47,599 nt of DNA, taken from NCBI RefSeq assembly GCF_016429285.1, contig NZ_JAELUI010000028.1, positions 1 through 47,599 of the forward strand, given 5' to 3'. The position numbers were made by a program, and so were the translations under genes. The notes beneath the pieces were generated by a model. That model did not search any database, was not told the DNA's origin, and saw only the letters and a program-made list of their open reading frames with translations. Source of the DNA: Ralstonia sp. ASV6. GTDB taxonomy: Bacteria > Pseudomonadota > Gammaproteobacteria > Burkholderiales > Burkholderiaceae. How positions within the stretch are numbered: position 1 is the stretch's first letter; the number at the start of each line of letters is the position of its first letter. Positions 20,981-34,160 of this stretch are shown here, one piece after another.

Positions 20981-21517
20981 ATGCCTGCCAAACGCCCTCA
21001 CGCCGTACGAACCATCGTTTTCGTTGTGTGTTCCGCCCTGAGTTCTTGGACTTGGGCGGACTGCCGCGATACGCTGGCAGCGGCCCAGCTTTCAGGCAAG
21101 GGAGCGCTGTGCGTCCTCGGATTCTGTTTATACGATGCACAACTGTGGAGCGCCAAAGTCCCGGTCAGCTACGACGCGCCGTTTGCCCTGGAAGTCACGT
21201 ATCGACGCGCCGTTGATCACAGCCGTCTCGTCCAGACGGCGATCGATGAGATCCGGCGGCTGCAGGCGCCCGCACTCTCCGACGAAACACTGGCGCAGTG
21301 GCAGCGGGCAATGGCACCTGCCTTTCCCGATGCCAAATCCGGCGACACGTTGTGCGGCGTCTATCTGCCCGAGCGCGGTGCGCGCTTCTACGCCAACGGG
21401 CAATTGACGACCGAGGTGAATGACCCTGCTTTCGCACGCGCCTTCTTCGACATATGGCTGGCGCCGGGCACCCGAGCGCCTTCGCTGCGGCGTCACCTCC
21501 TGGGCGAATCACGTTGA
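20981..21517 (+). CDS. Chalcone isomerase-like exported protein
   Basis: 178 aa. A Sec signal peptide (basic start, IVFVVCSALSSWTWA, cleavage about residue 26) precedes a chalcone-isomerase-like fold (Pfam chalcone_3 type): G-K-G-A-L-C-V-L-G-F-C-L-Y-D-A-Q-L-W followed by ALEVTYRRAVDHSRLVQTAIDEI and FDIWLAPGTRAPSLRRHLLG at the end. Bacterial members are not flavonoid enzymes; the fold binds fatty acids, and the genes recur beside DUF1365/CFA/flavin-oxidase lipid clusters as here. Plus strand, converging on the lipocalin gene with 11 bases between the stops. No clear ribosome-binding site at the ATG. Confidence 0.82.
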   Translation: MPAKRPHAVRTIVFVVCSALSSWTWADCRDTLAAAQLSGKGALCVLGFCLYDAQLWSAKVPVSYDAPFALEVTYRRAVDHSRLVQTAIDEIRRLQAPALSDETLAQWQRAMAPAFPDAKSGDTLCGVYLPERGARFYANGQLTTEVNDPAFARAFFDIWLAPGTRAPSLRRHLLGESR

Positions 21518-21528
21518 TGCACGCACCG

Positions 21529-22161
21529 CTAGTCGGCATCTCCCGGCGACTGAAAGCCTGGTTGCCCGATCTGGCTGGGGAATTGCGGTACGCGCCGGAA
21601 ACGCGAGGTGTCGTAACCCATGGCTTCGAAGCGGCCGAGTGCGGCGCGATAGTCGGCATCACTCATATCGGGGTCGCGCGAGAACACCCAGCCGAGGCTT
21701 TTGTCCGGATAGCCCAACAGCGTCACGCGGTAATCCGGGTCGACATACAGCGTCAGCTGCGAGACGTAGAGGGGCCAGAACAGGCGCACACGCCACTCGC
21801 CACCACCACTGCCCGCCACGACCGAATCCACAAACTGCATTCGCTTGAGCGGGGCATCGAAACGCTCTGGCCGGTAGACGTAGGCATCGTCGATACGGCC
21901 ATCGGGCCGCAGCGACCATTCGGCGTAGCTGCCGACATTGCCGCGCTCACCAAAGTACGGAATGTTGGCAATGACATACCAGCGCCCCATGTAGCGCGGC
22001 AGATCCACGGGCACCGTCTGCAGCGGCACCGCGGCGCGGGGGTTGGGATTGGGCGGCGGCCCGGAGCACGCGGCACTGGCAGCGACCAGCGCAGCCACCA
22101 CCAGGCAGCGCGCCCAACGTGACGGGGTGAGTGAACTGTGGCCCCTTCCATACGCTCTCAT
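21529..22161 (-). CDS. Lipocalin family (Blc-like) lipoprotein
   Basis: 210 aa from ATG 22161 (AGGAGC 8 bases upstream); a much longer open reading upstream is antisense to DUF2878 and has no signal. A lipoprotein-like signal (VVAALVAASAAC, Cys about residue 33) leads into the lipocalin core: Y-M-G-R-W-Y-V-I-A-N-I-P-Y-F (the G-x-W motif), Y-A-E-W-S-L-R-P-D-G, then L-G-W-V-F-S-R-D-P-D-M-S near the end. By family it binds fatty acids or lysophospholipids in the envelope. Its gene start overlaps that of the divergent DUF2878 gene by 24 bases. Part of the LitR lipid island by position. Confidence 0.9.
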   Translation of the reverse strand: MRAYGRGHSSLTPSRWARCLVVAALVAASAACSGPPPNPNPRAAVPLQTVPVDLPRYMGRWYVIANIPYFGERGNVGSYAEWSLRPDGRIDDAYVYRPERFDAPLKRMQFVDSVVAGSGGGEWRVRLFWPLYVSQLTLYVDPDYRVTLLGYPDKSLGWVFSRDPDMSDADYRAALGRFEAMGYDTSRFRRVPQFPSQIGQPGFQSPGDAD

Positions 22162-22680
22162 CGTACGCTCCTGTATGCAGTGGCCGGGCAAGCCGGCTGG
22201 TTTGTATGCGTGCTGAGCGCCGCGCGCGATGTTGCCTGGATGGGCATAGCCTTCGTCGCGATGCTGCTGGTCTTTCATCTGTGGCAAGCCCGCCGACCCT
22301 CTCAGGAGTTGCGGCTGGTGCTGGGTGTCGTCATGGGTGCGGCGCTGTGGGAGACCGGCCTGATCCGCACCGGGCTGATCGTCTATCCGCATGGCGCCCT
22401 GTGGCCTGGACTGGTGCCGCCGTGGCTGCTCGCGCTGTGGGTGTTGTTCGCGATCCAACTGAATGTCCTCTTCCGCTGGTTGCGCGGTCGGTGGTGGCTG
22501 GCGATGGCGCTGGGGGCGATGGCCGGCCCACTGTCGTTCCGAGCAGGCGCGGCGCTCGGCGCCGCCCATATTCCGGACCCGGCGATGACGATGGGCGTAC
22601 TGGCCGTCGGTTGGGCGCTGTGGATGCCCACGCTGGTGTGGATGGGCGCGCGCCACGACGGCATCGACGCCCTGCCGTAA
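22138..22680 (+). CDS. DUF2878 family membrane protein
   Basis: 180 aa from GTG 22138, supported by GGGGTGA 7 bases upstream; a later GTG at 22180 would clip the first helix. Five or more hydrophobic helices (about residues 12-32, 34-48, 58-75, 85-108, 120-140, 150-168). Matches DUF2878, small integral membrane proteins of unknown function that co-occur with DUF1295, DUF1365 and CFA genes. It is the only gene of the island's core that is inverted: its start overlaps the lipocalin start on the opposite strand and it ends 6 bases before the methyltransferase stop. Confidence 0.8.
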   Translation: MAPSIRSHRTLLYAVAGQAGWFVCVLSAARDVAWMGIAFVAMLLVFHLWQARRPSQELRLVLGVVMGAALWETGLIRTGLIVYPHGALWPGLVPPWLLALWVLFAIQLNVLFRWLRGRWWLAMALGAMAGPLSFRAGAALGAAHIPDPAMTMGVLAVGWALWMPTLVWMGARHDGIDALP

Positions 22681-22686
22681 CTGCCT

Positions 22687-23787
22687 CTAGCGCTTGACGA
22701 ACCGGTAATGCGCCACGCCCCATTCGTTGCCATTGGCATAGCCAAACAACGTCGACACTGCCAGGTAGAACATGCGCCACCGCTGGAACCACACTGCCGC
22801 TTCGCTCGCGCCGTAGGTTTGGGCGAACACCGGCATCAACCGGCTGCGCGCGGCGTCAAGATTGGCCAGCCAATGGTCTGCCGTGCGTGCATAGTGCGTG
22901 CCGCTGACCCACCATTGCCTCGTCACACGCAGATCGTCCTGGAAATGCAACAGCAGCGCCTCCGATGGCATGGTCCCGCCCGTGAAGAAGTACTTCGACA
23001 TCCAGTCGGTCCCGTCCTGCACCTGAAAGTGATATGCCAGCGTGCGGTGCGCAAAGATGTGCACGAACAGCGCCGCATCCGGGCGCATCCACCGCGCAAC
23101 CTTGGCGAGCAACAGGCCGTAGTTCTTCATGTGCTCGAACATCTCGATCGACACGACGCGGTCAAAGCGGCCGCCCGCGGGCATCTCGGCAAACTCGAAA
23201 TCGACAATGTTGCCGGTGTGCACATTCAGGTTGGTCAGGCCGCGCTCGGCGGCGCGCGCTTCGATCCAGCGGCGCTGGCCCTGCGAGTTGGACAGCGCCA
23301 CGATGCGCGCGTTGGGATAGCGCTTGGCCATCCATAGCGAGAGCGAACCCCAGCCGCATCCCAGGTCGAGAATGCACTGACCATCCGCCAGACCGGCCCG
23401 TTCGGCATAGCACTCGAACATTGCCTCTTCGGCCTGGGCGAGCGTTTCGGTTCCGGTCGGGTACAGCGCGCAGGAGTACTTCAATTGAGGCCCGAGATGG
23501 GCCTCAAAAAATGCGGGCGGCAACTCATAGTGCTGGGTATTCGCCGCGTCCGTCTCGATCGCAATGGGGCTGGCGCGCAGCTCGTCGAGCAGCGCATTCA
23601 AGCGCCGCGAGCGCAGTTCGCCGTTGCCAATGCCCTCGTCTTCCAGGCGCTGACGCATGAGGCTGCGCATCCCGCCACGGACAAGTCCATCAGGCAGCCA
23701 ACCGCGCTCGCAGCATTGAATGAGCCAGCCGTCGCGCGGCTGCGCCACCTCCGGAGTGGGCATCGTGGGCGTGGATAGCACCGTCAT
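22687..23787 (-). CDS. CFA synthase-family SAM methyltransferase 2
   Basis: 366 aa from ATG 23787 (GAGGAG 8 bases upstream). SAM-binding motif I is I-L-D-L-G-C-G-W-G-S-L-S. It keeps the residues equivalent to the classical cyclopropane synthase active site as I align them: Cys106 (L-K-Y-S-C-A-L-Y), Glu218 (S-I-E-M-F-E-H), His243 (F-V-H-I-F-A-H) and Tyr299. The overall shape (N-terminal RRLNALLDELRASPIAIETD) is closer to the coclaurine N-methyltransferase-like branch of this family than to E. coli Cfa. It is the last minus-strand gene of the coupled set, 25 bases behind DUF1295. Probably methylates an unsaturated lipid acyl chain; the product is not known. Confidence 0.88.
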   Translation of the reverse strand: MTVLSTPTMPTPEVAQPRDGWLIQCCERGWLPDGLVRGGMRSLMRQRLEDEGIGNGELRSRRLNALLDELRASPIAIETDAANTQHYELPPAFFEAHLGPQLKYSCALYPTGTETLAQAEEAMFECYAERAGLADGQCILDLGCGWGSLSLWMAKRYPNARIVALSNSQGQRRWIEARAAERGLTNLNVHTGNIVDFEFAEMPAGGRFDRVVSIEMFEHMKNYGLLLAKVARWMRPDAALFVHIFAHRTLAYHFQVQDGTDWMSKYFFTGGTMPSEALLLHFQDDLRVTRQWWVSGTHYARTADHWLANLDAARSRLMPVFAQTYGASEAAVWFQRWRMFYLAVSTLFGYANGNEWGVAHYRFVKR

Positions 23788-23812
23788 GTCAGGTCTCCTC
23801 AAACTCTGCAAG

Positions 23813-24589
23813 TCAGTGGCGCGGTGGCCAGGGAATCAGGACGCTCGTCGTGCGAACGTATTCGGCATAGTCGTTGCGCGTGGCTTGCATATGGGCTTCC
23901 AGCATGGGAATACCGGAAACCTTCACGAGCAGCCAAGCCATCACGACCGGTGGAAGCAGCGTGAGCCACGCCCACGGCGCCCCAACCGCGAGCGGCATAT
24001 AGGCCAGCCAGTGCACGCATTCGAAAAAGTAGTTGGGATGCCGCGAATAGCGCCACAGCCCAGTTCGACAGGTCTTGCCGTGGTTGGCCGGATCTGCGAC
24101 AAACCTGCGCAGTTGCTGATCTGACAGCGCCTCTCCGCCCACGGAGACCAGCCACAGCGCGACGGCCACCACCACGGCGATCGCGCTCGGTGTATCAGGC
24201 CGGTAGCTCGGCACCGCAAACGCAATCGACAGAAGCATCGACACCGCTGCCTGCAGCTGAAAGAAGCCAAACATGTTGCGCGATGCCGCCGCGCCCCACT
24301 CCTGGCGCAGTTTTCTGTACCGCGCATCTTCTGGTTTGCCAGCATTGCGGCGCCACAGATGCCAGCCGAGGCGGCACCCCCATACCGCACCGCCCACGCC
24401 GACCAGCACGCGCGCCTGCACCGAACCTGTGCCCAGCCACGCATAGATGAGTGCCACCAGGCCGAGCGAGAACGCCCACACCGGGTCGACCATGCCAGCA
24501 TTCTCGTTGCTCAACTGCCACGCCCACACGGCACTGAACACTGCCACCAGAACCAACAGCGCGACGAGAGCGGCACTCCATACCGACAT
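23813..24589 (-). CDS. DUF1295 / steroid 5-alpha-reductase-like membrane protein
   Basis: 258 aa, seven or so helices. The C-terminal part carries the signature of this group: G-L-W-R-Y-S-R-H-P-N-Y-F-F-E (about residues 180-193), the NADPH-binding region shared with steroid 5-alpha-reductases and isoprenylcysteine methyltransferases. ATG 24589 is preferred (GGGGGTGA just upstream); a GTG at 24595 would overlap the previous stop by 4 bases, so coupling holds either way. By analogy it may reduce or isomerise a double bond in a lipid. Member of the LitR lipid operon. Confidence 0.88.
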   Translation of the reverse strand: MSVWSAALVALLVLVAVFSAVWAWQLSNENAGMVDPVWAFSLGLVALIYAWLGTGSVQARVLVGVGGAVWGCRLGWHLWRRNAGKPEDARYRKLRQEWGAAASRNMFGFFQLQAAVSMLLSIAFAVPSYRPDTPSAIAVVVAVALWLVSVGGEALSDQQLRRFVADPANHGKTCRTGLWRYSRHPNYFFECVHWLAYMPLAVGAPWAWLTLLPPVVMAWLLVKVSGIPMLEAHMQATRNDYAEYVRTTSVLIPWPPRH

Positions 24590-24591
24590 GG

Positions 24592-25791
24592 TCACCCCCG
24601 TTCCAGCAGGAACTGCGACACACCGATGCGCCCCTCGTCAAAGCCGGCTTCGCAATAGGCGAAGTACAGACGCCAGATGCGGATGAAGGACTCATCGAAG
24701 CCGAGCGCGCGCACTGCGTCCAGCTGCGCCTCGAAACGCTGACTCCAGCGGCGCAGCGTCTCTGCGTAATCGGGGCCGAAGTCCAGGCGATCCACCAGTT
24801 GCAGACCGTGTTGCTCGGCCAGGCGCACAAAGCGCTCCCGGCTGGGCAGCATGCCGCCGGGGAAGATGAACTGCTGGATGAAATCCGTGCCGGCGCGATA
24901 GCGCTCGAAGTGCGCCTCATCAATGGTGATGCTCTGAATAAGGGCCCGGCCTCCATGACGCAGACAGCGCACCAGCGTCTTGAAGTAGGTTGACCAGTAA
25001 GCCTCGCCCACCGCCTCAAACATCTCGACGGACGCGATGGCGTCGTACGCGGTCTTCAGGTCACGGTAGTCGCGCAGCTCGACTTGGGCGCGCGGCTCGC
25101 CCGCGAGGCGCTCGGCCGTGTAGCGACGCTGCTCTTCCGACAGCGTGATGCCGTGCACCCGGGCGCCGCGCGCACAGGCCATCTCCATCAGGCCGCCCCA
25201 GCCGCAGCCGATTTCAAGCACGTCCATGCCGGGCCCGAGTTTGAGCAGATCGCACACGCGCCGATACTTGGCAGCCTGCGCATCGGCCAGGCCATCCTGA
25301 AGACGGCCGTTGAACCACGCGGACGAATACGCCATGCCCTCGTCCAGCCAAAGCCGGTAGAAATCGTTACCCAGGTCGTAGTGCAAATGGATGTTGCGCC
25401 GACTGCCTTTGCGACTATTGGGACGCAGCAGATGGCGCAGGCGCAGGACAGAACGCGCCAGCGCATTCCCGAAAATTGCCTGTTCCAGTGTGGCTGCATT
25501 CCTGATGGCCAGGCGCAGCAAGTTCGACAGATGACTTGTCTCGACCCATCCATCGCGATATGCCTCGGCAAAGCCCACATCGCCACTGCGCAGGATGCGC
25601 GCGCAGGCACGCCAGTCGACGATGCGCAGATCCGCAGACAGCGGCGAGGCAGCGTCGCCGATCAGCACCTCCCCATCCGGCGTGATGAGGTGCAGCAGAC
25701 CGTGACGCATGCGGGATGCCAGCGCCACGAACAGGCGGCCACCGGCGGGAACATGTGGCGGTACCCACGCCAAAGAATGTGCGGCAGTCAT
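24592..25791 (-). CDS. CFA synthase-family SAM methyltransferase 1 (altered bicarbonate site)
   Basis: 399 aa from ATG 25791, which overlaps the DUF1365 stop by 4 bases (ATGA). Motif I is V-L-E-I-G-C-G-W-G-G-L; the catalytic Glu (Glu259 in V-E-M-F-E-A-V-G) and Tyr342 (F-G-P-D-Y-A-E-T-L) are kept. The position of the Cys that holds bicarbonate in E. coli Cfa (Y-S-C-A) is Ser157 here (Y-S-S-A), and the His of L-L-H-T-I-G is Gln286 (L-I-Q-S-I-T). So it may transfer methyl without forming a cyclopropane ring, as do fatty-acid methyltransferases of the branched or furan fatty acid type. Soluble, membrane-associated by family. E. coli residues quoted from memory. Confidence 0.9.
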   Translation of the reverse strand: MTAAHSLAWVPPHVPAGGRLFVALASRMRHGLLHLITPDGEVLIGDAASPLSADLRIVDWRACARILRSGDVGFAEAYRDGWVETSHLSNLLRLAIRNAATLEQAIFGNALARSVLRLRHLLRPNSRKGSRRNIHLHYDLGNDFYRLWLDEGMAYSSAWFNGRLQDGLADAQAAKYRRVCDLLKLGPGMDVLEIGCGWGGLMEMACARGARVHGITLSEEQRRYTAERLAGEPRAQVELRDYRDLKTAYDAIASVEMFEAVGEAYWSTYFKTLVRCLRHGGRALIQSITIDEAHFERYRAGTDFIQQFIFPGGMLPSRERFVRLAEQHGLQLVDRLDFGPDYAETLRRWSQRFEAQLDAVRALGFDESFIRIWRLYFAYCEAGFDEGRIGVSQFLLERG

Positions 25792-26558
25792 CGAGGGGGC
25801 TCCAGAGAGGAAGATGGGTTGCGCGGGTGGCTGCCCAGGAAGGGCACCCCCTTCATCCACAGGCGAAGCGCCTGCCAATGAATGCGGCCGATGACCTGCA
25901 ACGCCAGCAACGGCTGCCGCAACAACGCGCGGCGCAGGTGGCTGGCATCGAAGGGCTGCAGGCGCCCGCCAATGGCGGTGTGCAGCAACAGGCCGTCGCA
26001 GTCGTGGTAGTCGATGCGCACCAGCGCCGTTGCAGGGGTCTCGGTAAAGCGGAACTGATAACCGCCCTCAACCGAGCAGAAGGGCGAGACATGGAGCTGC
26101 TTGCGGCACGTCAGCACGGTATCGGTGCCGATGGACCCACCGTCCTGAGCGCAGAGCAGGTAGCGATGGTGCTGCCCGAATGTGTTGTTGACCTCGGCCA
26201 GCACCGCGCGCAACGTGCCGGCCGCGTCGTGGCAATACCAGAACGAGACGGGGTTGAACATCCAGCCGGCAACGCGCGGGAAGGTCTGCAACCAGACCTC
26301 GCCATCGGCAGGCAAGCCAGCCTCGCGCAGCACGCCACGTATCCAAACAAGCAGATCGGTGCCGTCACGCGGGCCGTAGTCACGTGTGCGCAGTGACAAC
26401 GGCCGCAGGCAATCCACACCGAACCACGTGCCCGTCAGCCTGCCCAGCGCCGAGAGCTTCACGCGCACGGCAAATACCGGGTAGACAAAGCGATTGGCCA
26501 CCGGCCGCAGGCGATGGTGCATGACTTGGCCGACGAGAAGTGCTGCGTCGCCGATCAT
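25788..26558 (-). CDS. DUF1365 family protein
   Basis: 256 aa. Conserved DUF1365 elements are all visible: V-M-H-H-R-L-R-P-V-A-N-R-F-V-Y-P-V-F near the start, G-W-M-F-N-P-V-S-F-W-Y-C in the middle, E-V-N-N-T-F-G-Q-H-H-R-Y and K-Q-L-H-V-S-P-F. Function unproven; the family is almost always beside a flavin amine-oxidase-like gene and a CFA-type methyltransferase, as here, and is thought to act in fatty-acid modification. Overlaps both neighbours by 4 bases (ATGA), giving tight translational coupling. Confidence 0.92.
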   Translation of the reverse strand: MIGDAALLVGQVMHHRLRPVANRFVYPVFAVRVKLSALGRLTGTWFGVDCLRPLSLRTRDYGPRDGTDLLVWIRGVLREAGLPADGEVWLQTFPRVAGWMFNPVSFWYCHDAAGTLRAVLAEVNNTFGQHHRYLLCAQDGGSIGTDTVLTCRKQLHVSPFCSVEGGYQFRFTETPATALVRIDYHDCDGLLLHTAIGGRLQPFDASHLRRALLRQPLLALQVIGRIHWQALRLWMKGVPFLGSHPRNPSSSLEPPR

Positions 26559-27850
26559 GGCGTCACCTGTGCCCAGGCCGGTTCGCAGCCGAAGTCAGCC
26601 GCCACGCGCAGGGCCGACTTGAGCCCGTCTTCATGAAACCCGTAGCCCGTCCACGCGCCGGCAAACCAGGTGCCGCTGCGACCTTGGAGTGCTGGCAAGC
26701 GGGCCTGCGCGTCGATGGCCGGCTGATCGAACACCGGGTGCTCATAAGCGAAGCGCTGATACTCCAGCTCCGGCGCCGGCGGGGCTGGCGGATTCAGCGT
26801 CACAACCACGGGTGTTGCCACCGGCAACGGTTGGAGCTGGTTCAGCAGATAGCTGACGCACGGTGCGGCACCCGCTGCCTCCACCCGCGGCGCATCGAGA
26901 TAGTTCCACGCCGACCACACACGGCGCCGACGCGGCAGCAGGCGGGTATCGCGGTGCAGGAACGCGGTGTTGGGCTGGTAGCGGAACGCACCCAGCACAG
27001 CACGCTCGTCGTCGGTTGCATCGTCGAGCAGGCGCAACGTCTGCGGTGCGTGCGTTGCGAGCACCACGGCGTCGTAGCGTTCGGTGCCGGAATCAGTCCG
27101 CACGTCGACATGGCCGAGGGCGCGGCGGATGCCGCGGACCGGCGTGGCGACGCGCACGTCCGCCAGCCGCTGGGCGATTGCCTGCACATAGCTGCGCGCA
27201 CCGCCTCTGACGGTACGCCAGCGTGGCCGGTTGAAGATCTGCAACAAGCCATGATTGAGGCAAAACCGCAGGAACGTTTCTGCCGGAAATGAGAGGATGT
27301 CGCGGCTCGGCGTAGACCAGATTGCCGCTGCCATGGGCAACAGATAGTGGGCACAGAATGGTTCGCCATAGCGGCCGGCAGCCAGCAGCGCGCCAAGGCT
27401 GTGGCGCTCGTTGCGCGCAACCGCCAGGTTGGCATGCGCCTGCCGATTGAAACGCAGAATGTCACCCAACATCGACAGGAACCGCGCCGACACCAGGTTG
27501 CGTGGTTGCGCAAACACCGTGCCCAGGCTGGTACCGGCCCACTCCAGCGCGCCGCCGTCCACCGACACGCTGAACGACATGTCGCTTTCGCAATGCGCCA
27601 CGCCCAGCTCGTCAAACAGGGCAATCAGGTTGGGGTACGTGCGCGCGTTGAACACAAGGAAGCCCGTGTCGACACCGAATACCTGTCCGCTTTCCTCAAT
27701 ATCAACGGTGTTGGTATGGCCGCCCAGCCGGGGAGCTGCCTCAAACAGCGTCACGGCGTGGTGCTTGGCGAGAAAATGCGCCGCTGCCAGCCCGGAAATG
27801 CCCGAGCCGACCACCGCGATGCGTTTTGCTGGGAGCTGGAGAATCTTCAA
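26555..27850 (-). CDS. FAD-dependent amine-oxidase-like lipid oxidoreductase
   Basis: 431 aa with TTG start at 27850 (no ATG lies before the nucleotide motif). The N-terminal Rossmann motif is I-A-V-V-G-S-G-I-S-G-L-A-A-A (Gly15, 17, 20), followed by FEAAPRLGGHTNTVD (the E and GG of FAD-dependent amine oxidases), and a C-terminal W-F-A-G-A-W-T-G-Y-G-F-H-E-D-G that closes the FAD site. This 'NAD/FAD-dependent oxidoreductase' subgroup accompanies CFA-type methyltransferases; related enzymes are implicated in desaturating methylated acyl chains. It is 28 bases behind folE and overlaps DUF1365 by 4. Confidence 0.9.
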   Translation of the reverse strand: MKILQLPAKRIAVVGSGISGLAAAHFLAKHHAVTLFEAAPRLGGHTNTVDIEESGQVFGVDTGFLVFNARTYPNLIALFDELGVAHCESDMSFSVSVDGGALEWAGTSLGTVFAQPRNLVSARFLSMLGDILRFNRQAHANLAVARNERHSLGALLAAGRYGEPFCAHYLLPMAAAIWSTPSRDILSFPAETFLRFCLNHGLLQIFNRPRWRTVRGGARSYVQAIAQRLADVRVATPVRGIRRALGHVDVRTDSGTERYDAVVLATHAPQTLRLLDDATDDERAVLGAFRYQPNTAFLHRDTRLLPRRRRVWSAWNYLDAPRVEAAGAAPCVSYLLNQLQPLPVATPVVVTLNPPAPPAPELEYQRFAYEHPVFDQPAIDAQARLPALQGRSGTWFAGAWTGYGFHEDGLKSALRVAADFGCEPAWAQVTP

Positions 27851-27878
27851 GGCTAGGCCTCTTCAGGTCGTTGGATGC

Positions 27879-28607
27879 TCATCCGCCATTGCGGCCGGGC
27901 AGCAGCGCGAGAAATTCGCGCCGCAGGCTCGGATCTGTCAGGAACACCCCGCGCATCACGCTGCTCACCATGCGCGACTCGTCGTCCTGCGTGCCGCGCC
28001 AGTGCATGCAGTAGTGCTCCGCCTCCAGCACGACCGCCAGACCGTCGGGCGCCATCCGGTCTTCCAGCAAGTCAGCAATCTGTTTGATGGCTTCTTCCTG
28101 GATCTGCGGGCGGCGCATGACCCAGTCGATCAGCCGGGCGTACTTGGACAGCCCGATCAACTGGGAATCCTGACTGGGCATGACGCCAACCCACGCGCGC
28201 CCCATGACCGGACACAGATGGTGCGAGCACGCGCTGCGCACCCGCAGCGGCCCGACCACCATCAGTTCGTTGAGCCGCTCCACATTCGGAAACGCCGTCA
28301 CCTCAGGTGCCGCGACATAGCGCCCCGCAAACACCTCCCGCACGAACATCTTGGCCACGCGGCGGGCGGTTTCGCGGCTGTTGTGGTCTTGTTCCACGTC
28401 GATGACCAGCGCGCGCAGCACGGCCTGCAGGCGCTCTTCCACTTCGACCTGAAGAAGGTCGAGTTCGCCATCGCGCAGGTGGGCGGCGATGTTGTCATTG
28501 GCGTGAAAGCGGTGCCCAGCGCTCATCAACCGTTCCCGAATGCGAACAGAAAGCGGCACGCTGCCAACCGCCCCGGAAAACCCGGGCGGATCCAAAGTTA
28601 GCTTCAT
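27879..28607 (-). CDS. folE: GTP cyclohydrolase I (FolE)
   Basis: 242 aa from ATG 28607, preceded by a perfect GGAGGTAA 5 bases upstream; a reading to 28724 would enter the regulator gene. It converts GTP to 7,8-dihydroneopterin triphosphate. Zinc ligands are Cys127 and His130 in A-C-S-H-H-L-C-P and Cys200 in E-H-Y-C-M; the conserved G-L-S-K-Y-A-R and QDDESRMVSS... segments fit the type IA enzyme, though this copy is longer at its N-terminus than E. coli FolE. Likely a second, stress- or light-induced folE, supplying a pterin to the LitR regulon. Second gene of the operon, 76 bases behind the LitR-like gene. Confidence 0.94.
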   Translation of the reverse strand: MKLTLDPPGFSGAVGSVPLSVRIRERLMSAGHRFHANDNIAAHLRDGELDLLQVEVEERLQAVLRALVIDVEQDHNSRETARRVAKMFVREVFAGRYVAAPEVTAFPNVERLNELMVVGPLRVRSACSHHLCPVMGRAWVGVMPSQDSQLIGLSKYARLIDWVMRRPQIQEEAIKQIADLLEDRMAPDGLAVVLEAEHYCMHWRGTQDDESRMVSSVMRGVFLTDPSLRREFLALLPGRNGG

Positions 28608-28651
28608 TGCAGTTACCTCCGAAAGCGGCGGTGCACTCACCACCCATGCCG

Positions 28652-28671
28652 GCTCAGGAGTGTTCCTGAGC
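28652..28671. promoter_or_regulatory. 8-bp inverted repeat between the litR-like gene and folE
   Basis: GCTCAGGA, 4 bases, TCCTGAGC, perfect arms, 45 bases before the folE start. It may be a regulator site or an mRNA hairpin tuning folE against the regulator. No U-run, so not a plain terminator. Confidence 0.5.
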
Positions 28672-28683
28672 ACATATACGCAA

Positions 28684-29670
28684 CTAACTCGCGGGTGGAT
28701 GCAGCGTCTCGGCGCGGATGGCAAATTCCATTGCGTCTTCGAGCATCAAGCGGGCACGGTTAGCGACGTCACCGAGATGCCGGTGAAGTTGCTCGTCCAA
28801 CGTGGAGCGCACGGCACAGCCGTCGCTGAATCGCTCAAACGCATCCAGTTGCCGGATGAGGTCAACGAGATGGCGCGGACATTCGCAGGCGATCGTCTGC
28901 GATGCGTTGGCAAAGATTTCCAACTGGCGATCGGTAAACCGACGCGCACTGCGCCGCAGGGGTTCGAGCTTTCCGTAGACCGCATCGACACGCACGAGCT
29001 GCGTCAACTCATGCAGGACTTGGTCAAGCTCGCTGTGCGCATTCGGCTCCCGATACAGCCGCACACCAGCCGCCCGCAGCATGTCAGTGGCGCGAACCGT
29101 GCCAAAACTGTAGATCACCCCAACCGCGCTGGTCCCGGCGCCGCGCGCCGCCGCCAGAATGGCTTGCGCTGTCTCGGGTTGCAGAGAGGCGGCTTCGACA
29201 ATCAGGGCGTCGGTGTCCGGTGGCAAATCCAGTCGCCCTTGCCCATCCACTGCAGGCAGTTCGGTGACCGGCTCAATGCCAAGCGACGCGAGCGTGCTCC
29301 TCCTGCGCCGCACGCGCTCTGCCAGCAACGGGCCGCAGACGGCGAGCGAGATCGCCGCGTGGGCTGCAAGCGGCCCCGCCTCCTCGGCCGCCCGCGACGT
29401 TTCGAGCAGTTGCTCAAGCTCGGCGCTGTCGGCGTGGGCGATCGCGCCGATGGCGTGCCCCTGACTCACCAGCGACCGCAAAAGCGTCAGCCGCCTGACG
29501 TCTTCACCGGAATACAGGCGCTGGCCCGACTCCGACTTGGCCGGCGAAATCACGCCATAGCGCTGTTCCCACACCCGCAGCGTGGAGACGGGCATCCTAG
29601 CCATGCGAGCGGCCGCGCCACTTCTGTACCGGGGGGCTGTATTGTCTTCGTGTTGCACATGCGTCTCCAT
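28684..29670 (-). CDS. LitR/CarH-like MerR family regulator
   Basis: 328 aa. N-terminal MerR helix-turn-helix (Y-R-S-G-A-A-A-R-M about residues 15-23; S-T-L-R-V-W-E-Q-R-Y-G-V 29-40; R-L-Y-S-G-E-D-V-R-R 51-60), then a four-helix-like part and a Rossmann-like region (about 105-230) in the place of the cobalamin domain of CarH/LitR. The canonical D-x-H-x-x-G histidine motif is not visible; instead there is Cys262-Glu-Cys264-Pro further on. Fits the proteobacterial LitR classes that lack typical B12 binding and respond to light directly or through a partner. Encoded at the head of the lipid operon and probably autoregulated through the promoter at 29691-29719. Confidence 0.88.
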   Translation of the reverse strand: METHVQHEDNTAPRYRSGAAARMARMPVSTLRVWEQRYGVISPAKSESGQRLYSGEDVRRLTLLRSLVSQGHAIGAIAHADSAELEQLLETSRAAEEAGPLAAHAAISLAVCGPLLAERVRRRRSTLASLGIEPVTELPAVDGQGRLDLPPDTDALIVEAASLQPETAQAILAAARGAGTSAVGVIYSFGTVRATDMLRAAGVRLYREPNAHSELDQVLHELTQLVRVDAVYGKLEPLRRSARRFTDRQLEIFANASQTIACECPRHLVDLIRQLDAFERFSDGCAVRSTLDEQLHRHLGDVANRARLMLEDAMEFAIRAETLHPPAS

Positions 29671-29690
29671 GCAAGCGCTGGTTGACTTAC

Positions 29691-29719
29691 ATGAAACGCT
29701 TCACGTGAAGCAACGTCAA
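29691..29719 (-). promoter_or_regulatory. MerR-style promoter/operator of the litR-like gene
   Basis: On the minus strand: -35 TTGACG (29719-29714), 17-base spacer, -10 TTTCAT (29696-29691). The spacer is filled by GCTTCACGTGAAGC (29698-29711), a perfect 14-bp palindrome. MerR-family regulators bind exactly in this spacer. The start codon follows about 20 bases downstream. Confidence 0.72.
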
Positions 29720-30069
29720 TGAAATGCAGCGGTTTTGACCGCTTTCCGTGTCTTTTGAATCGGAATTGAGTCGCTTATTCGGCAGCAAAACCCGGCGCAT
29801 GTTGATGCAGACCGGCAAGCACCCTGACATCTTGCAAAGTGCACCTTCGCGCATAGCGGCTTGGGTCAGGCGCCTCACGCTCAGCACTGCCCCTTGACCC
29901 CGGTGCCCGAAGACGCACCTCGACACGTCAAGGCCAGCCCGGCAAGGGCGAGTCCACTCCGCCACTAAGGCTCCCCGGCCGGCTCCGGGGTAGAAACCGG
30001 CTCGGCGAATAGCGCGTCAACGCATACTCGCAAGCGTTCTAGCCCCCTCCCTTTTGGCCGAGTTAAATC

Positions 30070-30253: not shown

Positions 30254-31732
30254 TTACGGGCAGTTTCCGATGACGTAGTAGCCGGCTGCCGTCTGCGCAA
30301 GCGTGGTCGTGTAGAACACGTTGTCCAGGCCCATGCTTTGGTTGGAGCCGTTGGCGTAGGCGATGCCACCGCTGTCGTGCGCTCGCCCAGCCTGCACGTG
30401 AGCGTAGTTGCTGGCCGTGGTGGCCGTGCAGGCAAAGCTTGATTGCGTCTTGGCCGACACGGCGGACGACTGTGCGCTTTCACCCGCCGTCGGGTCGATC
30501 TCGGTCACGGTGTAGCTGTAGGAGGTGCCCGCAATCAAGCCCGAGTCGGTATACGTCGTTGAGGTGGATGAACCGACCTTGCTGCCGTTGCGGTAGACGT
30601 TGTAACTGGTCGCGTTGGTCACCGCATTCCACGACAGCGAAACGGTCGTGGTGGTCGTGCCCGTCACCGTCAGGCCCGTGGGCGTGCTGCCCGACTGCAC
30701 CGGCCCGCTGCCTGCGCGCAGGTTGTTCTTCACCCAGTAGTCCATGACAAAGGCCGGGTAGTTGATGTGCGTGGCATCAACGTAGTTGGTGTTGTCGCCA
30801 CCAGTACCGGCCGGCCATGCGTGGGCCATGCCCGAGACCGAGATCTCATGCGTGCGAAGCTTGCCGTTGCTATCGGTATAGGGCGTATTGGTGCCGCCAC
30901 CCGAAATCGAGACCGTCGCCCCCTTCGTAAAGGTGCCACCGTAAATCAGGCGGAAAGCTGCGGTGTCCATCGGGCCATACGCCTGCGCCACGGTGTAGTC
31001 CGACGTCCCCCACACGGCGCCGGCAATCTGCGTATTGAAGCTGCTCGCGTTTGAGCCCGCCCATGCCTTGCAGTTGTTGGCCGCCGTTGTGGCGGTGTAG
31101 CCGGAAGGCACATAGCCGATCTGCGAGGTGGTGGTTCCGGGCGGCGGGCCAGCGTTGATGCCGATGCCCGCAAAAATGTCCGGCGCGATACAGCCCAACA
31201 CCATCGTCATGCCGCCGCCGGAAGACAGGCCGGCTACATACACCTGGTTCGGGTCGATCGCGTATTGCGAGTTGGTGACAAAGCGATTGACCAGATCCAG
31301 CAGCACACCCACGTGCCCGCTCGTGCGGCTGGGCGACGTGTTGGCGTAGTCCCAGCAGTGGTTACTGTAGACGTTGCCAGTGGCATTGGGTGCCAGGATG
31401 ACAGCGCCATATTGCTCGGCAATGGTCTTCCAGTTGAAGCCGGCACCATTGGCGTTATCGATCACGTCGCCGGACGCCGTTTGCAGGCAACCATGCAACA
31501 CCAGCACCAAGGCGCGCTTGCCGTTGGGTGTGGTTGGCTGACTGGCCGGCCAATAGAAGTAGCCCGTCAGGTTGCCGCCGTTGACCGTGTCCGCGGCCCA
31601 GGTTTGTTGGCTGCTCCAGGCTCCCGGGCCGGCGGTGACCGCCGCGTGCGCTGAGAACGTTGCCAGCGCGGTCATCAGCGTGACGACCAGCGCGTAAAGC
31701 CAATGCCATCGATACCCGTATGGATGTTTCAT
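30254..31732 (-). CDS. Extracellular PHB depolymerase (catalytic + fibronectin III + substrate-binding domain)
   Basis: 492 aa from ATG 31732 (AGGAGAG upstream). Sec signal ending A-H-A at residue 30, catalytic domain about 40-340 with the oxyanion L-H-G-C (79-82), lipase box G-L-S-S-G (Ser170) and catalytic His304 in G-M-A-H-A-W. A fibronectin type III linker follows (about 350-430, TGLTVTGTTTTTVSLSWNAV) and a C-terminal ~60-residue polymer-binding domain with Cys435 and Cys491. This is the order of secreted short-chain-length PHA depolymerases. It cleaves denatured poly-3-hydroxybutyrate outside the cell to oligomers; the next gene upstream degrades these oligomers. Confidence 0.95.
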   Translation of the reverse strand: MKHPYGYRWHWLYALVVTLMTALATFSAHAAVTAGPGAWSSQQTWAADTVNGGNLTGYFYWPASQPTTPNGKRALVLVLHGCLQTASGDVIDNANGAGFNWKTIAEQYGAVILAPNATGNVYSNHCWDYANTSPSRTSGHVGVLLDLVNRFVTNSQYAIDPNQVYVAGLSSGGGMTMVLGCIAPDIFAGIGINAGPPPGTTTSQIGYVPSGYTATTAANNCKAWAGSNASSFNTQIAGAVWGTSDYTVAQAYGPMDTAAFRLIYGGTFTKGATVSISGGGTNTPYTDSNGKLRTHEISVSGMAHAWPAGTGGDNTNYVDATHINYPAFVMDYWVKNNLRAGSGPVQSGSTPTGLTVTGTTTTTVSLSWNAVTNATSYNVYRNGSKVGSSTSTTYTDSGLIAGTSYSYTVTEIDPTAGESAQSSAVSAKTQSSFACTATTASNYAHVQAGRAHDSGGIAYANGSNQSMGLDNVFYTTTLAQTAAGYYVIGNCP

Positions 31733-31846
31733 GGTGTCTCTCTCCTGTTGAGGTGGTCTTGCTTTGCTGCCTTCACTGCAACGACAACTAACGCGCGGTG
31801 AGGGCCCCCTCACCACGTCGCTGTGGCGCTCTTTTTATATGACACA

Positions 31847-31860
31847 TGATTCATGTTTCA
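31847..31860. promoter_or_regulatory. 14-mer TGATTCATGTTTCA shared with the tetR promoter
   Basis: Identical to 42366-42379 in front of the TetR gene. Here it lies in the -35/-10 interval of the PHB depolymerase promoter and is part of a short inverted repeat ACATGA-T-TCATGT (31844-31856). Confidence 0.65.
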
Positions 31861-31917
31861 GCGAATGAACGCGCGGGATACGGCATGGATCAGCGATGGA
31901 AAAATCGGTGAAGAAGC

Positions 31918-31950
31918 GCCCTGAGCGCGGGTGTATCAAGCGCTCAGGGC
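31918..31950 (-). terminator. Hairpin behind the 3HB-oligomer hydrolase gene
   Basis: GCCCTGAGCGC, 11-base loop, GCGCTCAGGGC: perfect 11-bp arms 47 bases past the stop. On the minus strand it is followed by a poor U-tract, so termination efficiency is uncertain. Confidence 0.65.
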
Positions 31951-31997
31951 AGCATCAGGGCGGCCTCCGTGATGGAACGCCCTGTGTCGGATCAGAA

Positions 31998-34160
31998 TCA
32001 GTTGGGTACAGACACGGTTGCCACCCCACCCGAGACGCTGACCGAGATGCGGTCGGCCGCTGCCGGCGTATTCGTGAAGTTCGGCACATTGCTGGCGGCA
32101 ATGGCCGGAGCCGAGCCCGCCGTACCGCCACGCGGCGTCGTACGCACCACCTGCGAGGGCGGCAGCGGTGTGCCGTTCTTCAGGTTGGCGTACACCGCAT
32201 CCAGCGCGCGTTGTTCATACAGCACCAGCGGCACGAACAGGGTGTCGTACCCGGGCACGAGGTCGATAAAGCCATCAAAGTGCTGCGCGTTGGTCACTTC
32301 GATGTACGACAGCTTGCTGCCCGTGTCGACCTGCGCGTTGAGCCCCAGATACGGCCGCGCACCATGATTGACCGGCAGCAGCGCATCATTGCGACCCTGC
32401 ACGATCAGGGCTGGCCGGCCACCCAGGTTGCCGGTGCGCAATGTCTGCGAAATACCCAACTGCAGCGCCTGCGAAGCAGCATCTGCGCCGGTCAACAGGT
32501 TGCGCAGGCACAGCGCACCGTCCAGGTTGGCCGCCTGCGTGCCGGAGGAGTCGACCGATTGCTTGCTTTGCGTGGCACCACCCTGCGCAAGGTTGTTGAT
32601 CAACTGAACGCCGGTGGTGGGCGGAACGCCGTTGCCGGTGGCGGCGAGTTGCGCGAGCACCGTGGCGTTGACCGCAGTCGGGTGAAACGTGGCATCAACC
32701 GCGGCAAAACTGAAGTTGCACAGGTTGTCGAACACGCTGGCGCGGGCCAGCGCGTTGCCGAACGTGGTGGCAACCGACGGATCGATTTCGAAATACGCCA
32801 TCGAGGCGTGCACGAGATCGGACTCAGGCTCCCAGCCGTAGGCACGCATCTTCTGCAGCGCTTCGTCTGCTTGCGCGGCTGTGGTGGTGGCCGACAGCAA
32901 GCCATTGGCGTGCAGCGCCGCACAGCGGTTGGCTTGCACGCTGGCCGGCCAGCCTACATTGCCGGCGAAGAACGACTGCGTAGGCGCGCTCGACACGCTG
33001 GTCGACAACGCCGCGCACAGCCGGAATTCGTTGGCATAGCTCACGTAGTCGAACAGCGGCTTGCCGGTTACTGGCAGCGTCACGCCGCCGCGTTGCACCT
33101 GCACATTGGCCGATGCCGGCAGGTTCAGCCCGGGCTCGCCCACGGCCACGCCGTCGATCAGGTTCGTGGTGTCCTGTTCCGCTGCAGCAATGGCCGCGCC
33201 GCCGCCATTGGACACACTGGAGGCGATGACGATGGTGTTGTCGGGGCGCACTGGCAGCGCGCTGCCGGTGAGCGCAGTGGAGCCGCCGAGCTTGTCATTG
33301 ATGGCCCAGAACGCAAACTGCACGGCTTGCAGCGTGAAGCGGCCCCAATCCTTCTCGGGGTTGCGCTGTGAATGTGCGTGCTTGAATGCCAGCCGGTTTG
33401 GCGTCGCGAGGTTGAACGCGGCCAGCCGGGTATCGGCAAGCGGCGCGGCAAACTGCGCCTTGCTGCCGGCGGCCGCGCGCGAGGTGCGCGTGCCATCCTG
33501 TAGCGGCACGGTATCGGTAGCCAGGTCATGCGGGCCGGCACCAGTACCCTTATCCGTATAGGCGACGGCGCATTTGCGCTTAAGCCCCCATTCACCCGTC
33601 GAGATCGCGCCGTAGATGCCACGCGATCCTGACGACGTGGCCGTGATGATGCACGGGTTGGCCGCATCGAAGGCGTCAGGAATCTGCACCAGCAGCACCA
33701 CGTTCTGCTGGCCGGAGCCATCGTCGGAATAGGCAACGTATTCCACGCCCGCCACCATGCCGCTGCCCGACGTGACGTTGCCGCTGGCATCGACATTCGG
33801 GCCGTAGAGCGTGCCATAGCCGCCCTTGGCATTGGTATCGACCAGCGCACGATAGTTGTTGTAGATGGCCAGGCGCCGCAACTCGGTTGCTGTCGGGGCG
33901 GTGGCGTTGGCCACGGTGGGTGCCGTGGCCGATGCCAGCCCCGATGCGCCCAGCCCGGCCGTCAACAGATCGTTACTCACACCGTCGAAATGCGTGACCG
34001 TTACGGTGCCGACAAACGACGGTTTGACGTTGCTCGGTGTGGGGTTGTTGTCATTGCTCCCGCCGCAGCTTGCCAGGCCTATCGCGCCGGACGCGGCCAT
34101 CGCCATCAGCAGTGGGCCGCGCAATCGGCGGCCTCTTTCCTTGCTCTGCATCGTTTTCAT
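31998..34160 (-). CDS. D-(-)-3-hydroxybutyrate oligomer hydrolase
   Basis: 720 aa; GGGAGG lies 5 bases before the ATG. Lipoprotein-like signal with lipobox L-A-S-C (Cys32). It matches the 3HB-oligomer hydrolase family (EC 3.1.1.22) through its length, the N-terminal T-H-F-D-G-V-S-N-D-L-L-T-A-G-L-G, and the serine motif S-V-S-N-G (Ser317); FKHAHSQRNPEKDWGRFTLQ is another family landmark. It hydrolyses 3HB dimers and longer oligomers made by PHB depolymerase to monomers, outside the cytoplasm if the lipid signal is used. It sits 65 bases behind the MaoC gene on the same strand. Confidence 0.94.
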   Translation of the reverse strand: MKTMQSKERGRRLRGPLLMAMAASGAIGLASCGGSNDNNPTPSNVKPSFVGTVTVTHFDGVSNDLLTAGLGASGLASATAPTVANATAPTATELRRLAIYNNYRALVDTNAKGGYGTLYGPNVDASGNVTSGSGMVAGVEYVAYSDDGSGQQNVVLLVQIPDAFDAANPCIITATSSGSRGIYGAISTGEWGLKRKCAVAYTDKGTGAGPHDLATDTVPLQDGTRTSRAAAGSKAQFAAPLADTRLAAFNLATPNRLAFKHAHSQRNPEKDWGRFTLQAVQFAFWAINDKLGGSTALTGSALPVRPDNTIVIASSVSNGGGAAIAAAEQDTTNLIDGVAVGEPGLNLPASANVQVQRGGVTLPVTGKPLFDYVSYANEFRLCAALSTSVSSAPTQSFFAGNVGWPASVQANRCAALHANGLLSATTTAAQADEALQKMRAYGWEPESDLVHASMAYFEIDPSVATTFGNALARASVFDNLCNFSFAAVDATFHPTAVNATVLAQLAATGNGVPPTTGVQLINNLAQGGATQSKQSVDSSGTQAANLDGALCLRNLLTGADAASQALQLGISQTLRTGNLGGRPALIVQGRNDALLPVNHGARPYLGLNAQVDTGSKLSYIEVTNAQHFDGFIDLVPGYDTLFVPLVLYEQRALDAVYANLKNGTPLPPSQVVRTTPRGGTAGSAPAIAASNVPNFTNTPAAADRISVSVSGGVATVSVPN

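Follow-up and report, generated by a model that had tools for sequence, protein, structure and literature searches.

What does a conserved run of lipid-modifying genes in Ralstonia sp. ASV6 make, and is its expression tied to light? The genes lie at positions 20981-29719 of a stretch of 47,599 nucleotides (contig NZ_JAELUI010000028.1, positions 1 to 47,599; hereafter, the window), and the original prediction, made from the letters alone, described them as a LitR-controlled membrane-lipid modification island. Furan-ring fatty acids are membrane lipids thought to scavenge light-made singlet oxygen. We propose, with a probability of about 0.78, that these genes form an operon for furan fatty acid synthesis, encoding both methylation steps, probably released by light through LitR and including a DUF1295 membrane protein as a pathway partner. 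The predicted product is most likely a dimethyl furan fatty acid, the synthesis of which is probably a response to light or singlet-oxygen stress. The original prediction of a multistep acyl-chain rewrite (methylation, dehydrogenation and oxygen insertion) next to a LitR-type regulator is supported by homology to UfaM, UfaD and UfaO, as is its choice of furan or methylated fatty acids among the candidates. The accompanying statement that the gene set has no assigned product fails: a likely product follows from the published furan enzymes UfaM, UfaD and UfaO and from the second CFA-type gene, which groups with the Rhodopseudomonas gene that best fits FufM (PMC7380195, cited here, like PMC9758184 and PMC4067076, from excerpts). 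The furan fatty acid pathway is already known, and the island is real, conserved and mostly explained. The island thus yields a prediction that can be tested, namely an operon linked to light that makes dimethyl furan fatty acid, in which DUF1295 is singled out as a conserved player lacking an assigned job.

Gene layout and proposed pathway

Seven genes, rather than the six first counted, form the minus-strand run:

28684-29670, minus strand: litR-like gene, predicted class III-like MerR regulator (Pfam MerR_1, 8e-16)
27879-28607, minus strand: folE, divergent GTP cyclohydrolase I (Pfam GTP_cyclohydroI, 3e-44)
26555-27850, minus strand: FAD oxidase, UfaD-like (acyl desaturase; Pfam Amino_oxidase)
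25788-26558, minus strand: DUF1365 protein, UfaO-like (furan oxygen insertion; Pfam DUF1365, 1e-72)
24592-25791, minus strand: CFA-1, UfaM-like CFA-type methyltransferase (Pfam CMAS, 2e-80; tree)
23813-24595, minus strand: DUF1295 membrane protein with a reductase-like fold (Pfam DUF1295, 1e-64; Steroid_dh, 6.5e-9)
22687-23787, minus strand: CFA-2, FufM-like CFA-type methyltransferase (identity to Rhodopseudomonas CFA-2; tree)

The open reading frames (ORFs) and Pfam matches bear out the predicted positions and tight packing, with 4-base overlaps at FAD oxidase/DUF1365, DUF1365/CFA-1 and CFA-1/DUF1295 and gaps of ~25 to 76 bases at the remaining three joints. The folE ORF extends to 28724, and its start at 28607 was chosen by a GGAGG motif.

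Judging from the reactions shown for Rhodobacter and Rhodopseudomonas homologues, CFA-1 (UfaM) would methylate the cis-vaccenoyl chains of phospholipids, a second double bond would be introduced into the methylated chain by the FAD oxidase (UfaD), and the DUF1365 protein (UfaO) would supply the O2-derived oxygen that closes the furan ring to give 9M5-FuFA, the ring of which would be methylated by CFA-2 (FufM) to give 9D5-FuFA. The class III-like LitR probably represses the operon in darkness and lifts this repression upon illumination, in parallel with another LitR/photolyase block that the genome carries at a different place, and DUF1295 would be a membrane reductase-like partner in the pathway.

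Probable identity of the furan fatty acid enzymes

In the published pathway, the monomethyl furan fatty acid 9M5-FuFA is made by UfaM, UfaD and UfaO: UfaM adds a methyl group to vaccenoyl chains, UfaD then desaturates the methylated chain and UfaO, a DUF1365 protein, is required for the O2-derived furan oxygen, with FufM (RPA0924) putting a second methyl on the ring (PMC7380195). Homologues of the CFA-type methylase, the FAD oxidase and the DUF1365 protein co-occur in the island. For comparison, both loci were taken from four of six Rhodopseudomonas genomes, the genus assignment of which we inferred. The FAD oxidase, DUF1365 and CFA-1 genes were clustered in 4/4 genomes, with CFA-2 elsewhere, directly after DUF1295, a layout that fits RPA2571-2569 (FAD oxidase/DUF1365/CFA-1) and RPA0923-0924 (DUF1295/CFA-2). 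The island FAD oxidase shares 44-45% identity with its Rhodopseudomonas counterpart, encoded next to DUF1365 and CFA-1; the corresponding values are 37-38% for the DUF1365 protein and 44-47% for CFA-2.

The two methyltransferases separate in a tree of 60 sequences, where CFA-1 clusters with UfaM of Rhodopseudomonas, and CFA-2 clusters with the CFA-2 genes of that genus, which were matched to RPA0924 by layout, neighbour and divergence, not by accession. Rhodopseudomonas CFA-2 proteins share 24-26% identity with the UfaM-like protein beside UfaD in genome G335; the published identities to R. sphaeroides UfaM are 26% for RPA0924 and 38% for RPA3082 (PMC7380195). The third, ordinary CFA gene of genome G549 reaches 30% against the same G335 protein, compared with the 38% reported for RPA3082, so that the identity comparison with the paper is only approximate. 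As far as sequence can tell, CFA-1 is UfaM-like and CFA-2 is FufM-like.

The UfaO model (25788-26558) is a beta-barrel whose nearest structural match is heme-binding nitrobindin (Z 8.2, a level that unrelated proteins also reach), and residues H14, H131 and Y133 of this protein are conserved. Among CFA-2 clade proteins of genus g129 (L095, L096), two of three have lost the conserved NSQHYEVP stretch, hinting that their function has changed or been lost.

Conservation and co-occurrence

A CFA-2 orthologue was found in 13 of 15 genomes of the same genus (G004 and G007 lack it), and the gene order is kept at 14 loci in these 13 genomes, apart from L079, which lacks the FAD oxidase and DUF1365 genes, L080, which lacks folE, and L267, where CFA-1 is split into two ORFs. 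The arrangement is conserved more than expected by chance. Genome G006 carries two island copies (L079 and L080) on two replicons. The closest plasmid matches to the island are five Caballeronia/Burkholderia records, with 71-74% identity across 5-21% of its length.

Beyond the genus, we sampled 398 genomes drawn evenly across the phylum and matched CFA-2 at a cut-off of 1e-30. Matches were obtained in 36 genomes, 33 of which, including that of ASV6, form the CFA-2 clade (at least 44% identity, E at most 1.2e-82), the three at 33-34% identity being excluded. UfaD is present in 30 of the 33 clade genomes versus 151/398 overall (Fisher P = 6e-11, or 1e-10 without the own genome; shared ancestry uncorrected). 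Among 35 CFA-2 stretches from outside the genus, the FAD oxidase was found in 21 and DUF1295 in 24. The 80 named CFA-2 loci, all from one query and many cut by contig ends, include homologues of the FAD oxidase (61), DUF1365 (60), DUF1295 (62) and CFA-1 (36); no homologue of the island DUF2878 was found at any of them.

Regulator, folE and promoter

The LitR-like protein has a MerR-type helix-turn-helix (HTH), no B12-binding domain and a C-terminus without a recognised Pfam domain, and its profile aligns with CarH structures from PDB in the HTH alone. It is 42-43% identical to Burkholderia and Caballeronia MerR proteins (42% for B. anthina and B. arboris). Class III LitR proteins are of Burkholderia type and are described as a MerR HTH followed by a C-terminus with no known domain (PMC9758184), a description that the HTH and the lack of a B12 domain fit, suggesting a class III-like LitR. 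A CEC-P-x-HL motif in the C-terminus is invariant across five compared proteins, one of them from a Methylomagnum plasmid stretch in which no ufa-type gene is annotated.

FolE matches its Pfam family, yet it scores below all four matched NCBIfam cut-offs. Its CEHH motif, which we take to comprise active-site residues, keeps the Cys and His, with Glu replaced by Ser. Because litR-folE occurs without ufa genes in a Caballeronia sp. SBC1 stretch, folE seems to go with litR, which suggests that it may serve the light sensor or a photolyase rather than the lipid enzymes. In that stretch (plasmid locus L281, 4834-13723), litR overlaps folE, a photoactive yellow protein gene lies ~7 kb off and no ufa gene is annotated.

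Two elements stand upstream of litR:

29691-29719, minus strand: promoter-like element TTGACG-N17-TTTCAT, in 15/15 litR upstream regions
29756-29772, minus strand: 11-bp direct repeat, candidate regulator site, in 13/15 litR upstream regions

A promoter scan gave no sigma-70 consensus match for the first element, the -10-like TTTCAT of which is non-consensus. The repeat, [AG]AYTCA-N5-[AG]AYTCA, has a single match across the window and none in 20 shuffled windows, a test that is not independent, as the repeat was spotted by eye on the same sequences. CarH binds 11-bp direct repeats, of different letters. Just upstream of the -35-like box there is also an inverted repeat (29726-29743); its stem sequence differs in sister genomes, where a similar GC-rich repeat seems to be kept.

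Several observations weigh against our reading. Three of the 33 CFA-2 clade genomes (G075, G399 and G418) are without UfaD, no homologue of the island LitR or FolE was found at any of the 80 named CFA-2 loci (from one query, many cut by contig ends), the published PplR/LitR operator was not found in the window, and the gene pair directly before the same enzymes in Caballeronia NK8 and B. anthina encodes an ECF sigma factor and its anti-sigma factor instead of LitR. The last two points, together with the off-consensus -10-like box and the free-standing litR-folE of Caballeronia SBC1, would suit control by an ECF sigma factor or other stress regulator, with litR-folE as a neighbouring unit. We consider this possible but doubtful: litR heads the run in 14 related loci, a single upstream element is kept in all 15 litR regions, and the joints inside the run are short. 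LitR control of the operon is plausible.

Photolyases and flanking genes

The island itself lacks a photolyase, as predicted, but the genome does not. One photolyase is encoded on contig C401, and on C523 (L250, 7677-13809) genes for an SDR, two photolyases (one of DPRP type) and a lipocalin stand divergently to a second litR, whose product shares 43% identity with the island LitR. In ten neighbouring stretches from nine sister genomes, the lipocalin/photolyase/SDR block abuts the chalcone-isomerase end of the island in G003, G005, G008, G010, G011 and G015, and in G006 a block of second litR and photolyase lies on the same replicon, within ~10 kb. The G013 flank comprises carbonic anhydrase and MFS genes, as in the window, and two of the ten stretches gave no match to any of the queries. 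The island and the photorepair genes often sit together in sister genomes and are apart in ASV6.

Three further genes trail the run:

21529-22161, minus strand: lipocalin (Pfam Lipocalin_2, 2e-31)
22138-22680, plus strand: DUF2878 protein, probably outside the operon (Pfam, 9e-36)
20981-21517, plus strand: chalcone-isomerase-like protein (Pfam Chalcone_3, 2.5e-12)

The lipocalin, which may carry or repair the lipids, shares the strand of the run, but the trailing genes do not form a single unit with the run, DUF2878 and the chalcone-isomerase-like gene lying on the opposite strand. Beyond the litR end, two long minus-strand ORFs (30254-34160) presumably encode a polyhydroxybutyrate (PHB) depolymerase-type esterase and a 3-hydroxybutyrate oligomer hydrolase.

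DUF1295, a conserved gene and proposed pathway partner

DUF1295 is the part of the island that the known furan fatty acid pathway leaves unexplained. Its structural model (pLDDT 96.4) has the fold of the steroid 5-alpha/sterol reductase superfamily, sterol and steroid reductases being the top matches. Of six aligned NADPH contacts, compared via an inferred 5-residue numbering offset, D163, N192, Y193 and E196 are identical in DUF1295, and N159 and R170 are not. An alternative in which the protein methylates small molecules or lipids, as ICMT does, and is not a reductase, appears unlikely. DUF1295 accompanies furan fatty acid genes across Proteobacteria, including where FufM is absent, as at the furan loci of G131, G186 and G329, genomes that give no CFA-2 match at 1e-30. 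The fufM neighbour RPA0923 was deleted in the published work, and in the excerpts its name stands only in strain and plasmid lists (10/10 places; PMC7380195). Singlet oxygen induces a DUF1295 gene of Chlamydomonas in a SAK1-dependent manner, alongside CFA1, CFA2 and a DUF1365 gene (PMC4067076, Table 5); because of this joint induction, DUF1295 may have a general role in defence against singlet oxygen. The singlet-oxygen genes of Chlamydomonas also include a fasciclin-like one (PMC4067076), and a fasciclin-domain gene lies beside the photolyase in B. anthina (L280, 25887-26471).

Speculatively, and against the odds, DUF1295 could be an enone reductase that uses NAD(P)H and takes furan fatty acids as substrates once they have captured singlet oxygen, reducing the ring-opened dioxoene (an unsaturated diketone) and clearing this reactive product from the membrane. 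If so, the operon would provide for synthesis of a singlet-oxygen trap as well as for its removal once spent, a partnership extending from bacteria to a green alga.

Quite improbable is the notion that UfaM, UfaD and UfaO make the monomethyl furan fatty acid only and that CFA-2 and DUF1295 make another lipid, such as a methyl-branched chain through methylation and reduction: the reductase-like fold, the adjacency of DUF1295 and CFA-2 at many loci, the 15 of 80 named loci with CFA-2 and UfaD and without DUF1295 (hence, separable parts) and the modest identity of CFA-2 to the Rhodopseudomonas gene would agree with it, but UfaD accompanies CFA-2 in nearly all clade genomes, DUF1295 occurs at the three furan loci just named, and R. 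palustris FufM does not methylate 18:1 (PMC7380195, excerpts).

Comparison with known systems

The proposed furan fatty acid operon has several known counterparts. On B. anthina plasmid NZ_CP071828.1, ~22 kb hold DUF1295, CFA-2, lipocalin, FAD oxidase, DUF1365, CFA-1, chalcone isomerase, GTP cyclohydrolase I, MerR and DUF2878 genes, plus a photolyase; there, the enzymes follow the ECF sigma/anti-sigma pair, and the MerR gene is separate, its product being the 42% identical relative of the island LitR. The LitR (PplR/PmlR) regulon of Pseudomonas likewise unites a LitR-type regulator, a ufaM operon and folE, and also includes photolyase, and in P. mendocina the ufaM operon is light-induced about 25-33 fold, with LitR; PplR/PmlR are class II LitR proteins with short LOV partners, and their operator is the one missing from the window (PMC9758184). 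Class III LitR of Burkholderia multivorans, compared by description only, shares the MerR HTH and the domain-free C-terminus (PMC9758184). In R. sphaeroides, unlike in the island, the UfaM gene stands at a separate locus, and ChrR and a sigma factor exert control (PMC7380195). The R. sphaeroides/R. palustris furan pathway has the same four enzyme types, and DUF1295 precedes the FufM-type gene in the island as in Rhodopseudomonas (PMC7380195); whereas Rhodopseudomonas keeps FufM in a separate place, the island gathers all furan enzymes in one run behind a LitR-like gene and folE.

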